Source of the DNA: Candidatus Kapaibacterium sp.
Lineage (GTDB): Bacteria > Bacteroidota > Ignavibacteria > Kapaibacteriales > Kapaibacteriaceae
NCBI GenBank assembly: GCA_030833725.1
Contig: JAURGP010000010.1
Span: 1-49,169, forward strand
DNA: 49,169 nucleotides
Reading direction: 5' to 3'
A program made the translations under genes and the position numbers. The stretch's first letter is position 1; every line of letters starts with the position of its first letter. Below are positions 21,052 through 28,216 of this stretch, in pieces. Below the pieces are notes generated by a model that saw only the letters and a program-made list of their open reading frames with translations, did not search any database and had not been told where the DNA came from.

Positions 21052-21663
21052 TTACTTCTTCGTGATCGTCATCTCGATCTTCTCCAGTGGATTGTCGCGA
21101 CCGTCACGAGGACTGTTCACGATGGCATCGGCAACTTCCATTCCACTGATCACTTCACCGAAGGCCGTGTACTGATTGTCCAGCCAAGGTGAGTCGGCCA
21201 CGCAGATGAAGAACTGACCGCCAAAGCTGTTGGGGTCGTTGGTGCGGGCGGCCGAAATCACGCCACGGGCATGCTTGCGATCGTTGAACTCCGCATCAAC
21301 CTTCTCGGGGTATCCGCCAGAGCCCCATACCTCACGAGGACGGTCCTTAGAGTTTGGATCGCCGCCCTGAATCATGAAGTTGGGGATGACACGGTGGAAG
21401 GCCGTCTTGTTGTAATAGCCTTCTGCCACACGAGCGTCAAAGAAGGCACAATGCTTGGGAGCGACCTCTGGCCAAAGCTTGATCACCATTTCTCCGAGCT
21501 CAGTATTGCCTTGCACCACCTTGATCACGTACATGTATTCTGATGTCATCGTTGCACTACCTGTTGTTTTCTTCTTGGTTGTTTGGGACGTCTGACCGTA
21601 CAGGGACCCTGCCTGTACCATCGTGAAGAGAACCGACCATGCCAGCATATACACTATGCGCAT
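21052..21663 (-). CDS. Secreted cyclophilin-type peptidyl-prolyl cis-trans isomerase
   Basis: 203 residues: signal peptide MRIVYMLAWSVLFTMVQAGSLYGQ, a short Thr/Lys linker, then a complete bacterial cyclophilin domain. Catalytic region: FHRVIPNFMIQGGDPNSKD (active-site Arg and the Phe/Met/Gln set), then FGGQFFICVADSPWLDNQYTAFGEVISGMEVADAI. It assists folding of exported proteins in the periplasm. It lies 33 nt after a gene that itself carries a cyclophilin domain fused to UppP, so the two probably arose by tandem duplication, and 6 nt before the PorE-like gene. No lipobox, hence probably soluble. Confidence 0.93.
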   Translation of the reverse strand: MRIVYMLAWSVLFTMVQAGSLYGQTSQTTKKKTTGSATMTSEYMYVIKVVQGNTELGEMVIKLWPEVAPKHCAFFDARVAEGYYNKTAFHRVIPNFMIQGGDPNSKDRPREVWGSGGYPEKVDAEFNDRKHARGVISAARTNDPNSFGGQFFICVADSPWLDNQYTAFGEVISGMEVADAIVNSPRDGRDNPLEKIEMTITKK

Positions 21664-21696: not shown

Positions 21697-23172
21697 CTAC
21701 TGCTTTCGTATCGAGTATACACGGATAGGACGCTTGGGCAGCCCATCGCCATCTCCCAGAACACCGGGTTCGACATCTACGCTGCCAATGGCATCCACCA
21801 CATCCAGTCCGTCGATCACGCGCCCAAAGATCGTGTATTGTAGCGGAAGTGTGGCTGCCGAATCCAAGCACACGAAGAACTGACTCGTGCCGGTACCTGG
21901 CGCCGGCTTGCGAGCCATGGCTACAACGCCATGCACATAACCCATCTTGGCCGATTTCGTTTCGGGATCGAGTTCTTCGGCAAGGGGCTCACCCGATGCA
22001 GTTTGCCCTCCTCGCCCCCACTCCCGGCGTGCCTTCCGCTCCCGCGTCTTGCGGTCTCCCATCTGAATCACGAAATGATGCGCTACACGGTGAATCAGGA
22101 TACCGTCGTAGTACTTCTTGGCAACAAGACCCAGAAAGTTCTCTACGGTGTTCGGTGCGTCCGTTCCATACAAACCGATCGAAAAGGATCCCATCGACGT
22201 CCGCACAACCACCTCGTCCGTAATGTCGGCAAGATGATCGTTGGTGATCTCAAGTGCTTCGTTGATGGCCGGCGGCTGGACCTGTTCCTTTTCGACGCTG
22301 TCGCCGCCAGACGGTGACGGCGTCTCTGACTGTGGAGAACACGACGTGAGGAGAATCACCGCACCCAAGGCTACGCGGTACAGCACGAACGACTTCAAGC
22401 TATGGTTGCGCAGGTATCGCAGCAGAAAGGCAATCGACCAGTAGCCACTCACGCCGGCTGCAACGGTAGCTGCTAGCAGCTCGGCCCCTCCACGATCCCA
22501 TTGAAGATGGTCGAGCTCGCCAATGAACTCCAACAGACCTGCACCGCCTATGGCCGGGATCGACATCAAAAACGAAAACCGTGCCGCATGCTCCCTGGTA
22601 AGCCCCCTGAACAGTCCAGCCATGATCGTTGTGCCACTGCGAGACGATCCCGGCACCAAGGCCAGCACTTGGGCACAGCCGATCAGGATGGCATCCACCA
22701 CCGTCATCTGCGAGGACGTCTTTGTGAACTTGGCTGTACTATCGGCCCACCAGAGAAGGGCACCTACACCAATCAGTCCCGTTGCAATCACGGACATTTC
22801 CTTGGTCACCGACCCTTCGATCACATCCTTCAATGCAAGGCCTACCACCACAATTGGGATTGTACCGACAAGTATGAACCATCCCATCCGGGCATCCGTA
22901 CCTTGCTTTGAAATAGGCTTTCGGCCCGAGCCAACATTCTCGCCTACAAATGCACGGAGAATCGAAGTGATATCCCTGCGGAAGAAAACAAGAACTGCCA
23001 GAAGTGTCCCGAGCTGGATGGTGGCCATAAAGGCAGTCCACCGTTCAGGATGTGCCGGATCGATCACGTCAAGCCAGGCGGCTGCAAGCGTCAGGTGGGC
23101 AGTACTGGAAATCGGGATGAACTCCGATAATCCCTGGATCACGCCAAGCACGATGGCAACAAGCATAGTCAT
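21697..23172 (-). CDS. uppP: Fusion: undecaprenyl-diphosphatase (UppP/BacA) joined to a cyclophilin domain
   Basis: 491 residues in one open frame. Residues 1 to about 275 are a complete UppP, which dephosphorylates undecaprenyl diphosphate for cell-wall lipid recycling: Q13-G-L-S-E17 with FIPISSTAHL, P174-GSSRSGTT, and the last helix FVLYRVALGAVILL. Residues 320-491 are a cyclophilin (ILIHRVAHHFVIQMGD, GTGTSQFFVCLD, YTIFGRVIDGLDVVDAI). Between them LLTSC (Cys 278) is a lipobox followed by a Ser/Pro/Glu-rich linker. Basic residues R252, R255, K260 before the helix put the cyclophilin outside the cytoplasm. An in-frame TTG at codon 259 (22398) would give MKSFVLYRVALGAVILLTSC, a good lipoprotein signal, so a separate internal product is possible. 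polA ends 3 nt upstream. Confidence 0.88.
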   Translation of the reverse strand: MTMLVAIVLGVIQGLSEFIPISSTAHLTLAAAWLDVIDPAHPERWTAFMATIQLGTLLAVLVFFRRDITSILRAFVGENVGSGRKPISKQGTDARMGWFILVGTIPIVVVGLALKDVIEGSVTKEMSVIATGLIGVGALLWWADSTAKFTKTSSQMTVVDAILIGCAQVLALVPGSSRSGTTIMAGLFRGLTREHAARFSFLMSIPAIGGAGLLEFIGELDHLQWDRGGAELLAATVAAGVSGYWSIAFLLRYLRNHSLKSFVLYRVALGAVILLTSCSPQSETPSPSGGDSVEKEQVQPPAINEALEITNDHLADITDEVVVRTSMGSFSIGLYGTDAPNTVENFLGLVAKKYYDGILIHRVAHHFVIQMGDRKTRERKARREWGRGGQTASGEPLAEELDPETKSAKMGYVHGVVAMARKPAPGTGTSQFFVCLDSAATLPLQYTIFGRVIDGLDVVDAIGSVDVEPGVLGDGDGLPKRPIRVYSIRKQ

Positions 23173-23175
23173 AGG

Positions 23176-25956
23176 TTAGTGTGCCTCATACCACGATTGT
23201 CCCCAACCCGTATCCACAACAATCGGCACACCTTCCAACGGCAGTGCACGCTCCATCTCTTCTCTCACGAGCGTGGTGACCTGCTCACGCTCATGTTGAG
23301 GAACTTCCAGCAGGAGCTCATCATGAACCTGCAGCATCAGCAGCGCCTGCACCTGCTCGCGACGCATGCGCCGATCCACGTTGATCATGGCGATCTTCAT
23401 CATGTCGGCTGCGGTACCCTGAATCGGCATGTTTACGGCTGCGCGCTCCGCGGCTGCTTGTAACTGTCGGTTCTGACTATTAATGAGTGGGAATAGTCGG
23501 CGTCGACCACGCAACGTAGTAGCATATCCGCGATCGCGGGTTGTGGCAATGGTGGTATCGATGTAGTTCTTGATCCCAGGATACTTCTCGAAGTACTGTG
23601 CAATAATCTGCTGTGCTTCGTGACGTGGCAAGCCCAACTGTTGCGCCAAGCCGAAAGCCCCCTGCCCATACATGATGCCGAAATTGACCGTTTTGGCAAT
23701 CCGGCGTTGGTCACTCGACACCTCATGCATTGGCACGTCAAACAGCGTTGCCGCAGTGGCAGCATGCACGTCGGCACCCTGAGCGAATGCCTCCAACAAA
23801 CTGGCGTCACCAGACATCGAGGCCATGATACGCAGCTCGATCTGGGAGTAGTCTGCCGAGAGAATGCACCATCCCTCACGCTGAGGCACGAAGGCCTTGC
23901 GGATCTGCTGACCGAGCTCGGTGCGAACGGGGATGTTCTGGAGATTCGGCTCTGTGCTGGACAGTCGCCCCGTTGCCGCTACAGTCTGGTTGAAGGTCGT
24001 GTGCACACGCCCAGTGTGCGGGTGGATCATGCGAGGAAGTGCTTCAACGTACGTCGATCGGATCTTCTCCACCTGGCGATAGTCCAGAACCATGCGGGCA
24101 ATGGGAAAGGTCTCGGCCAGCTCGTTCAGCACACTACTGTCGGTGGAGTATCCCGTCTTGGTTTTCTTCGCAGCTGGCAGCATCATCTTGTCGAACAGGA
24201 TGGTACCCAGCTGCTTCGGCGACGAAATCGTAAACTCCTCACCCGCTTCGTGCCAGATTTCTTGCTCGAGTCTTCGTGCCTCCGATCGCGTGAAGTCAGC
24301 GATGGTCCCCAAGGCTTCCGGGTCGACACAGATCCCGTTGTACTCCATGGTCACCAGCACCGATACTGCCGGAAACTCAATCTGCTGTGCCAACTCTACG
24401 AGAGCTGCACGCTCCAGCTCCGGCCGCAGAGCATGTGTCAGTTGAAGAGCAACGTCGGCGTCCTCGCCGGCGTACTCGGTGACCACACTCGGATCAACCT
24501 CGCGCATCGAGATCTGCTCACTACGCTTTTCACCAATGAGCGACGTGATGGAAATCGGTCGATACTGCAGCCAACGCTCAGCCAGTGCATCCAGGTTGTG
24601 CTTCTGGTCGGGATCGAGCAGGTAGCTGGCCAGCATCGTATCAAAAACAATAGGGCAGAGATCAACATCATACCGACGCAGGACCAGAGCATCGTACTTC
24701 AGGTTCTGGCCTACCTTGCCGATGGATGGATCCTCGAGCAGTGGCTTCAGCGCATGAATCACTTCGTGCACCGGTAGACCGTGGCGGTCGTCATTGCCAA
24801 ACAGGCTGGCCGCAGCATCACCCGTGGAATTGTCGTCGACGTCGATGTACCAAGCGCGTCCCGGACGATCGCTCAGGGCCACGCCTACAATCTCGCAGCG
24901 CATGGCATCCAAACCAGTGGTTTCGAGATCCACACTCAGCTCGGTACATCCCTTGATGTGTTCGAGGACGTCGTGCAACGCACCGGGCGTATCAACCAGG
25001 GTGTAGTCGTGATCCACATCGGAGAGTGTCCGCAGCTGGTTTCCATTCGTAGCGTCGATACCGATGTCCACACCCGAGTGCTGGGCGTAATCGGCGAATT
25101 TCCGGCGTAGGGAATGGAAGTCGAGTTCCTGACAGAGCTGATCCAGTGCCGTGTAGTCCATAACCTTGCGGGTCAGGGCTACTCGCTTTGCATCGATAGG
25201 TACATCTGTGTGGATCGTTACCAGCTGTTTGGAGAGGAAGGCCATCTCGCGGGAGGCCTCCAGCTTCGACTTGAGCGAGGCTTTCTCCACCTGGTCTAGA
25301 TGCTCATAGACCTTCTCGAGAGACCCAAACTGCTCAATCAGCGGAATGGCGGTTTTTTCTCCAACACCCTTTACCCCAGGTACATTATCGGAGGCATCTC
25401 CGATGAGAGCCAGAACGTCGATAACGTGCTCGGGACCAACGCCAAACTTCGCACGCACCTCCGAGGCCGTGTACACATCGTACTCTCCTACGTTCTTACC
25501 CGGACGAAGGATTGACACCTTATCGGTGACCAGCTGGAAGTAGTCTTTATCCGATGTGACACACAAAATCTTGTGGCCGTCGTGCGACTCTCGCCGTGCA
25601 ATCGTACCGATGATGTCGTCGGCCTCGAACCCTGGCAGCTCCACCTGCTCCAGCCCCATGGCGGTAATCAAACTCTTGATGCGTGCCAATTGGGGAACAA
25701 GGTCATCCGGAAAGGCGTCACGGTGAGCTTTGTACTCTGGATACAATTCGTGCCGAAAGGTTGGCTGAGCCGTATCGAACACCACGGCAATCGCATCGGG
25801 ATCATGCTTGTCCAGCAGGGACGTCAGAATGTTTGCAAAGGCAAACACGGCGAACGTTGGTTCACCCGTCGCCGACTTCATTCCCGTACGCTGCAGAGCG
25901 TGATAGGCGCGAAACACCAGCGAAAAACCATCAATCAGGATGAGAGGTCCAGGCAT
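23176..25956 (-). CDS. polA: DNA polymerase I
   Basis: Fills gaps and removes RNA primers. 926 residues with all three domains. The 5'-nuclease (about 1-290) has ILIDGFSLVFRAYHAL, GFEADDIIGT, TSDKDYFQLV and GDASDNVPGVKGVGEKTA. The 3'-5' exonuclease (about 340-530) appears active: VDLETTGLDAM (Exo I), GQNLKYDALVL (Exo II) and YAGEDADVALQL (Exo III). The polymerase has ADYSQIELRIMASMSGD (motif A), RRIAKTVNFGIMYGQG (motif B) and LQVHDELLLEV (motif C). It heads the long minus-strand run that continues into uppP after 3 nt. TAACTTGA lies 3 nt before its ATG, a weak version of the -7 box seen elsewhere. Confidence 0.97.
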   Translation of the reverse strand: MPGPLILIDGFSLVFRAYHALQRTGMKSATGEPTFAVFAFANILTSLLDKHDPDAIAVVFDTAQPTFRHELYPEYKAHRDAFPDDLVPQLARIKSLITAMGLEQVELPGFEADDIIGTIARRESHDGHKILCVTSDKDYFQLVTDKVSILRPGKNVGEYDVYTASEVRAKFGVGPEHVIDVLALIGDASDNVPGVKGVGEKTAIPLIEQFGSLEKVYEHLDQVEKASLKSKLEASREMAFLSKQLVTIHTDVPIDAKRVALTRKVMDYTALDQLCQELDFHSLRRKFADYAQHSGVDIGIDATNGNQLRTLSDVDHDYTLVDTPGALHDVLEHIKGCTELSVDLETTGLDAMRCEIVGVALSDRPGRAWYIDVDDNSTGDAAASLFGNDDRHGLPVHEVIHALKPLLEDPSIGKVGQNLKYDALVLRRYDVDLCPIVFDTMLASYLLDPDQKHNLDALAERWLQYRPISITSLIGEKRSEQISMREVDPSVVTEYAGEDADVALQLTHALRPELERAALVELAQQIEFPAVSVLVTMEYNGICVDPEALGTIADFTRSEARRLEQEIWHEAGEEFTISSPKQLGTILFDKMMLPAAKKTKTGYSTDSSVLNELAETFPIARMVLDYRQVEKIRSTYVEALPRMIHPHTGRVHTTFNQTVAATGRLSSTEPNLQNIPVRTELGQQIRKAFVPQREGWCILSADYSQIELRIMASMSGDASLLEAFAQGADVHAATAATLFDVPMHEVSSDQRRIAKTVNFGIMYGQGAFGLAQQLGLPRHEAQQIIAQYFEKYPGIKNYIDTTIATTRDRGYATTLRGRRRLFPLINSQNRQLQAAAERAAVNMPIQGTAADMMKIAMINVDRRMRREQVQALLMLQVHDELLLEVPQHEREQVTTLVREEMERALPLEGVPIVVDTGWGQSWYEAH

Positions 25957-26961: not shown

Positions 26962-27718
26962 GGGGCTTTTTCCAGACGAGTTCGGCGAAACCACTCACGA
27001 GAATACCCGTTGGAATGGCAAACAAGCCTAGACCGAGAACCGCTGTCAGTGCACCCAGTACCTTACCGAACGTGGTCACGGGATAGACGTCGCCATATCC
27101 CACGGTGGTAATTGTCATGGCCGACCACCACATCGTGGCAGGGATACTGTGAAACTTGTCCGGTTGAGCTACACTCTCGGCGTCGTACATCAGCGCCGAC
27201 GACAGTACCAGAAGAAACGAGATAAAGAACACTGAGCTTACCAGTGGATGTCGCTTGGCAACAACCACCTCACGAATCATCTGCAGTGCTTGAACATATC
27301 GCGAGAGTTTGAGCAGTCGCGTCAGCCGCAACAGACGGGCCAGCCGAAGAGTGCGGAGAGAGTATCCGAAGAACGGCACCACCGATGGCAGAATTGCCAA
27401 CACATCGATGACTGCCATTGGCGTGGTAACGTAACGCAGTCTGCCCAGTACCGGATGATCATAGCGGGGATCTTCAACACAGGACCACAGACGCAGCAAG
27501 TACTCCGCAACGAAGACCACCACAACAAGGAGATCGATGCGCACGAGCCACGAGCCATAGGACTGGCGAATCTCAGGTATCGATCCCACGATGACCACTG
27601 CTACCGAGGCAACAATGACGGTGATCAGCGTCCACCGAACCAAGAGTGCAGAGATAGCTGGACTCCGCTCATCCAACATTGCGTACGTCCACTGACGGAG
27701 CGACCGATACTTCGACAT
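26918..27718 (-). CDS. Voltage-gated potassium channel (six-helix type)
   Basis: 266 residues with S1-S6. The voltage sensor S4 has Arg or Lys at every third position (LRTLRLARLLRLTRLLKLSRY), and the selectivity filter TTVGYGD with following YPVTTFGKVLG identifies a K+ channel of the Kv/KvAP type. S1-S3 acids are present (IDLLVVVVFVAEYLLRLW). The last residues CPHCGR contain a CxxC pair, a half zinc-ribbon, odd at the end of such a channel. Its 3' end overlaps terC by 44 bp; its ATG is only 18 bp from the divergent lipoprotein start, so the two promoters must overlap the opposite coding ends. Confidence 0.93.
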   Translation of the reverse strand: MSKYRSLRQWTYAMLDERSPAISALLVRWTLITVIVASVAVVIVGSIPEIRQSYGSWLVRIDLLVVVVFVAEYLLRLWSCVEDPRYDHPVLGRLRYVTTPMAVIDVLAILPSVVPFFGYSLRTLRLARLLRLTRLLKLSRYVQALQMIREVVVAKRHPLVSSVFFISFLLVLSSALMYDAESVAQPDKFHSIPATMWWSAMTITTVGYGDVYPVTTFGKVLGALTAVLGLGLFAIPTGILVSGFAELVWKKPPTDADHPRCPHCGR

Positions 27719-27724
27719 ACCACC

Positions 27725-27732
27725 TACCTTTG
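27725..27732 (+). promoter_or_regulatory. Candidate -7 box (TACCTTTG) directly before the NlpC/P60 gene
   Basis: Exact TAnnTTTG match ending 4 nt before the GTG start at 27737, within the 18-bp gap between two divergent genes. It would yield a leaderless or nearly leaderless mRNA. Confidence 0.45.
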
Positions 27733-27736
27733 TGAT

Positions 27737-28216
27737 GTGAACACAGCGAATCTACATGTTCAGCCGTTGCTAGCGCTGGTTGCTGCTGTTTGTATCGCAG
27801 TTCTCTCAAGCTGTGCATCTGCCTCGACTTCAGCCTCGACTTCAGCGTCGACTTCAGCGTCGACACCATTGTTGAGCTATGCCAGCGAACTTGATGGCAC
27901 ACCGTACTGCTATGGTGGGGCAACCACGGACTGCTTTGACTGTTCAGGGTTCGTCACTCACTGCTACCAGAAGTTCGGGCTGTCACTGCCCCGAACCACG
28001 TCAGAATTGTATGCCATCGGTGAGCGAGTGATTGATGGTCTTCGTCCGGGGGATCTCGTGTTCTTCAACACAAACGGTCGATCGGTATCCCACGTTGGCA
28101 TCTACCTCGGCGATGATCGGTTCATCCATGCCTCCACATCTCGTGGCGTCATCACCTCGATGCTGACCGAGCGATACTGGCAGCAGAGGTATCTGGGTGC
28201 CCGCCGCCTCCCGTAG
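27737..28216 (+). CDS. NlpC/P60-family cell-wall endopeptidase lipoprotein
   Basis: 159 residues. The GTG at 27737 gives a lipoprotein signal ending VLSSC (lipobox, Cys about residue 27), then a linker of four ASTS/ASTP units, and then the NlpC/P60 cysteine peptidase domain, which cuts D-Glu-linked peptides in peptidoglycan. The catalytic Cys lies in DCFDCSGFV, the His in SVSHVGIYLG and the third residue in FIHAS; PRTTSELYAIGERV and LRPGDLVFFN are conserved. The frame is open further upstream, but that extension runs antisense through the potassium channel gene and lacks homology. Start choice is supported by the -7 box and the signal peptide. Confidence 0.9.
   Translation: MNTANLHVQPLLALVAAVCIAVLSSCASASTSASTSASTSASTPLLSYASELDGTPYCYGGATTDCFDCSGFVTHCYQKFGLSLPRTTSELYAIGERVIDGLRPGDLVFFNTNGRSVSHVGIYLGDDRFIHASTSRGVITSMLTERYWQQRYLGARRLP
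27821..27868 (+). repeat. 12-bp tandem repeat, four units, in the lipoprotein linker
   Basis: Units GCCTCGACTTCA (twice), GCGTCGACTTCA and GCGTCGACACCA encode ASTS ASTS ASTS ASTP. In-frame gain or loss of units would only change linker length between the lipid anchor and the peptidase. Confidence 0.9.

Follow-up and report, generated by a model that had tools for sequence, protein, structure and literature searches.

A UppP-cyclophilin fusion with a conserved lipobox at its junction in a Kapaibacterium-like family: a candidate lipoprotein-type polyprotein

UppP serves in the recycling of undecaprenyl pyrophosphate, and peptidyl-prolyl isomerases help envelope proteins to fold. The lipoprotein enzymes Lgt and LspA have N-terminal signal peptides as their known substrates, and it is at the N-terminus of a protein that lipoprotein signals are looked for and annotated. 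A polytopic protein of the membrane can nevertheless share one chain with a periplasmic protein: the cytochrome b/c1 polyprotein encoded by Bradyrhizobium fbcH is cut at an internal signal sequence. To our knowledge this is the nearest mechanism to what we propose for the fusion described here. The fbcH cut, however, uses a site of the signal peptidase I type and a dedicated internal signal, whereas the UppP-cyclophilin fusion has a lipobox and a helix shared by both parts. No precedent of the fbcH type turned up in the papers searched, a set outside which most subscription papers lie. Nor did the searches of these papers bring up a case of a UppP-cyclophilin fusion (in agreement with the first-pass annotation, which knew of none), of an internal lipobox or of LspA acting on polytopic proteins. 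What is new is the helix that the two halves share, with its lipobox; the halves themselves are of known kinds.

In a signal embedded in the membrane, the lipobox cysteine is recognised by Lgt and the cut by Lsp falls before it, both on the periplasmic side (PMC8048626). For E. coli BacA (UppP; PDB 5OON, 6CB2) E21, S27 and R174 have been named as active-site residues, and both termini are placed in the periplasm by the positive-inside rule, although earlier models differed (PMC5852022).

The fused gene, its domains and its spread

The fusion gene is located in a window of 49,169 nucleotides (the whole stretch of DNA that was analysed) and reads through 491 codons without an internal stop (Table 1). 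An uninterrupted frame with complete UppP and cyclophilin domains had been annotated at first pass, and both frame and profile matches bear this out. Pfam BacA (PF02673) matches residues 6-272 over its whole profile (257/257; E 1.8e-79; 267.5 bits, cut-off 33.4), and the NCBIfam UppP profile TIGR00753 scores 223.1 bits against a cut-off of 217.5. Pro_isomerase (PF00160) follows at residues 321-486 (profile 2-155 of 159; E 2.7e-35; 122.4 bits, cut-off 21.7).

Table 1. Positions in the window of the fusion gene, its parts and its neighbours
Feature	Position	Strand	Evidence
uppP-cyp fusion gene (491 codons and a stop codon; ATG at 23172, last base of the stop at 21697)	21697..23172	-	ORF; Pfam/NCBIfam; 20/23 family genomes
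UppP/BacA part, residues 1-277	22342..23172	-	Pfam BacA at full length; 5OON alignment, active-site residues
Last UppP helix, residues 260-277, with a proposed second role as lipoprotein signal peptide	22342..22395	-	Model; invariant residues
Lipobox LTSC, residues 275-278, proposed site of Lgt lipidation and of LspA cleavage before C278	22339..22350	-	Conservation in 20/20 fused proteins
TTG codon 259, candidate nested start, judged unlikely as a start	22396..22398	-	Codon and SD survey, 20 fused genomes
Hypervariable linker, residues 279-318	22219..22338	-	Alignment; pLDDT
Cyclophilin (peptidyl-prolyl isomerase) domain, residues 319-491	21700..22218	-	PF00160; fold match
Second, separate cyclophilin with apparent secretory signal peptide	21052..21663	-	ORF; Pfam; family loci
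polA, upstream neighbour	23176..25956	-	Pfam DNA_pol_A

Alignment to 5OON shows that the UppP part keeps the motifs of the E21/S27/R174 type (QGLSEFIPISSTAH and PGSSRSG), and that the position equivalent to E17 is occupied by Q. The AlphaFold2 model (alignment of 29 sequences; mean pLDDT 86, pTM 0.60) consists of a high-confidence UppP with its last helix at residues 260-277, a stretch that is predicted to be disordered (residues 279-306, pLDDT under 50) and a cyclophilin from residue 319 onwards. Residues 1-278 superpose on residues 5-273 of 5OON with a Z-score of 34.5 (rmsd 3.1 over 261 residues), and the cyclophilin domain matches the fold of cyclophilins with a Z-score of about 22. The last UppP helix is LKSFVLYRVALGAVILLTS, directly followed by C278. 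Since the helix ends at residue 277 and the alignment to 5OON runs up to residue 278, the UppP part is complete before the cysteine, and a cut at this point would leave a C-terminus like that of the E. coli protein. The likeness to E. coli UppP thus comprises the full-length domain, the fold, the active-site motifs and the periplasmic C-terminus; the fusion protein differs in its Q at the E17 position and in running on past the last helix, via the lipobox, into the cyclophilin. Four PAP2-family proteins above cut-off are encoded in the same genome, so UppP may not be its sole C55-PP phosphatase.

All 23 genomes of the Kapaibacterium-like family encode the uppP and cyclophilin pair. A single open frame of at least 488 codons is found in 20 of them, including the genome of the window, and their match to the window protein starts at residue 1 or 4 and ends at residues 489-491 (58-69% identity for the relatives). 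The remaining three (G008, G010 and G011) have two genes. Outside the family no full-length unbroken fusion frame was seen in 123 genomes of the order, in a class-wide sample of 391 or in a phylum-wide sample of 395 genomes. Here a cyclophilin often lies 3' of uppP; in several genomes it keeps the uppP frame but comes after a stop, and hence is a separate gene. The gene fusion is real and conserved: the architecture recurs as an unbroken frame throughout most of the family.

The fusion gene begins 3 bases after the end of polA. As annotated before, a second cyclophilin comes directly after it; this protein of 203 amino acids starts 33 bases past the fusion stop and has counterparts at the 3' side in nearly all family loci. 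In one of these (L035:5567-6226, UBA7675) the second cyclophilin is lipoprotein-like (LVLGCSG), while its counterpart in the window carries a plain secretory signal. TAnnTTTG is the -7 promoter box of Bacteroidota. In 14 of the 23 family genomes (loci L004, L006-L008, L010, L013, L015, L016, L018-L021, L024 and L025) it is found 11-20 bases ahead of the uppP ATG, where its density in the loci would predict 0.08 occurrences. The window's own copy is without the exact motif. Judging by this box, the fused gene may be transcribed from a promoter of its own at the end of polA, with an mRNA that is almost leaderless; this agrees with the absence of Shine-Dalgarno (SD)-like motifs at the uppP start in any of the genomes.

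The junction helix and its lipobox

The LLTSC that ends the last UppP helix had been read as a lipobox, and LKSFVLYRVALGAVILLTSC is indeed found at this place. The cysteine is present in all 20 fused proteins, and the residue before it is G, A or S in each of them. The distance from the arginine of the YR motif to the cysteine is 12 residues in 19 cases and 14 in one, and F262, Y265, R266 and G270 are invariant. The cysteine codon is TGT in some fused genomes and TGC in others. Past the cysteine about 35 residues lead up to the cyclophilin without a single invariant column. A pattern like PS00013 is found in 20/20 fused proteins and the stricter [LV][ASTVI][GAS]C in 12/20; the remaining eight carry F or A at -3. 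Among 85 different C-termini of unfused UppP, none has a cysteine within 26 residues counted from the motif. Judged from this pattern of conservation, the lipobox is under selection.

The fused proteins show an invariant lipobox cysteine, a hydrophobic segment and a positively charged n-side, as lipoproteins do. They have no N-terminal signal peptide; the lipobox follows a polytopic protein, with its cysteine at residue 278 of 491. Because it is internal and is not preceded by a conserved internal start, we do not file the fusion protein as an ordinary lipoprotein but propose a lipoprotein-like processing.

Split relatives and the origin of the junction

In the three split genomes UppP stops about 18-20 residues past the FxxYR motif, and the cyclophilin has a signal peptide and a lipobox of its own at its start (e.g. 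MRSRFGIVLVLATIAVMCGC in G008). In G008 and G010 the cyclophilin start and the UppP stop overlap in the sequence ATGA. Several other families of the order have this plan as well, with a cyclophilin lipoprotein in, for example, G041, G056 and G053 (MQRWWLILFCCVVAC, MRYLFLLSFLIVVIIQSC and MPWWSVLIVAVLFGAC, respectively). Overall, in split members and in the wider order where checked, the gene after uppP usually encodes a cyclophilin lipoprotein that has a signal peptide of its own. These proteins share with the fusion the cyclophilin, the gene order and a lipobox before a variable linker. They differ in having their own start and signal peptide, whereas in the fusion the signal would be the last helix of UppP.

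Four genomes of one genus (G096-G099, loci L115-L118) have after uppP a cyclophilin whose signal is without a lipobox, which places it nearer to the second cyclophilin than to the lipoprotein one. In three of these four it shares the frame of uppP, from which a single TAA separates it.

In the fused genomes the FxxYRxxxG half-helix of UppP passes directly into the last residues of a lipoprotein signal (LLTSC, LLTAC, LFTSC, LLAGC and similar). The ancestor may have had uppP followed by the overlapping or adjacent start of a cyclophilin-lipoprotein gene with its own signal peptide. A deletion or joining of frames would then have merged the start of the last UppP helix (FxxYR..G) with the end of the signal peptide of the cyclophilin, so that one helix came to replace both. 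Such a joining deletion would be a simple explanation of the fused junction.

The phylogenetic analysis does not single out one history. In the joint tree the split pair G010/G011 is nested among the fused genomes and a single fused clade is rejected (p 0.019), but neither domain on its own rejects it (0.218 and 0.104). As far as these trees go, they would allow one origin of the fusion, two origins or one re-split. The genus g4 contains both a split member (L022, G008) and a fused one (L005, G013), and would be a good place for dating the fusion.

Proposed processing and alternative readings

We consider the fusion protein to be best explained as a polyprotein that is lipidated by Lgt and cut by LspA, with free UppP and a cyclophilin on a lipid anchor as the products (probability roughly 0.65). 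The chain of 491 amino acids would insert into the membrane, after which Lgt would put diacylglycerol on C278, as the lipobox suggests. LspA would then cut between S277 and C278 and leave a UppP that ends like the E. coli protein. The same cut would free a periplasmic, lipid-anchored cyclophilin that is possibly transferred to the outer membrane. Beyond equal dosage no functional link between UppP and cyclophilin would be needed. The wider idea is that a transmembrane helix inside a polytopic enzyme serves as a substrate of Lgt and LspA, with one helix being both part of the UppP structure and a cleavable signal and each chain giving two mature proteins; in our estimate it has somewhat better than even odds. 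If true, the lipoprotein machinery accepts internal helices, and predictors that consider only the N-terminus overlook such lipoproteins. A lipobox at the end of UppP throughout a family would also be a natural test of how far LspA can reach helices that are packed within a membrane protein, and the locus a clear example of adjacent genes fusing via one shared helix.

LspA is encoded in 23/23 family genomes and Lgt in 22/23. The draft genome of the window itself (G000) gives no match to Lgt (PF01790); since the 22 relatives do have it, this is probably a gap in the assembly.

The unbroken frame in 20/23 genomes would also fit a stable fusion that remains uncleaved, in which UppP carries a permanently tethered periplasmic cyclophilin at the sites of lipid-carrier recycling, perhaps lipidated at C278. 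The periplasmic C-terminus of BacA is on the correct side for this and the linker of about 40 residues is flexible. Such tethering, however, leaves unexplained why an invariant cysteine and a small residue before it are kept in a junction that otherwise drifts, and why the same cyclophilin is lipid-anchored in the split relatives, and we regard it as unlikely. The full lipobox in every fused protein instead speaks for cleavage, by which the cyclophilin would be set free. As a consequence, of the earlier suggestion of a true fusion that tethers the isomerase to UppP, the fusion stands but the tethering is not favoured. It might also be argued that the cysteine is kept for another reason (e.g. 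a disulfide or a metal site) and that the resemblance to a lipobox is incidental, given a second invariant cysteine at residue 435 of the cyclophilin part. This seems very improbable: the small -1 residue, the hydrophobic run and the fixed distance to the arginine are conserved as well, and in split relatives a cyclophilin of the lipoprotein type occupies this point. A joining of two genes by assembly or sequencing error has nothing but the draft status of the assembly in its favour, and its chance is close to nil. For the first-pass annotation, relatives with separate genes would have suggested an indel; three relatives are split, though an indel in the window's assembly is excluded by the open frames in 20 family genomes. 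These are divergent genomes with differing sequences at the same junction and with both cysteine codons, and one of them (G004) is a single contig.

The remaining alternative is a nested gene, in which a second start at codon 259 gives a separate cyclophilin lipoprotein and the helix does double duty at the DNA level. The in-frame TTG reported at first pass is present, and codon 259 is ATG, TTG or GTG in the window and 15 other fused genomes, which gives a plausible n-region. Over the 20 fused genomes, however, the counts are 11 ATG, 4 TTG, 1 GTG and 4 CTN, the last not being a start, and three genomes (G017, G006 and G016) are without any in-frame ATG, GTG or TTG 14-36 codons before the cysteine. 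SD-like motifs precede codon 259 in 0/20 fused genomes, against 13/19 at the next gene, though the uppP start has none either, and no TAnnTTTG box lies within 200 bases upstream of it in any genome. The split genomes carry an ATG at position 259 too, even though the frame ends some 20 codons later. Moreover, a nested start would not prevent the full-length chain from being produced. We therefore consider this reading quite improbable. An internal start may be used in some species, but it cannot account for the family-wide lipobox. The proposal that the final UppP helix doubles as a lipoprotein signal hence holds up for one polyprotein, with its lipobox in 20/20 fused proteins, and not for two genes.

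Elsewhere in the window (27248-28216, plus strand) an NlpC/P60 protein has a lipobox-like LSSC that is directly followed by a short tandem repeat of serine, threonine and alanine (ASTSASTSAST).
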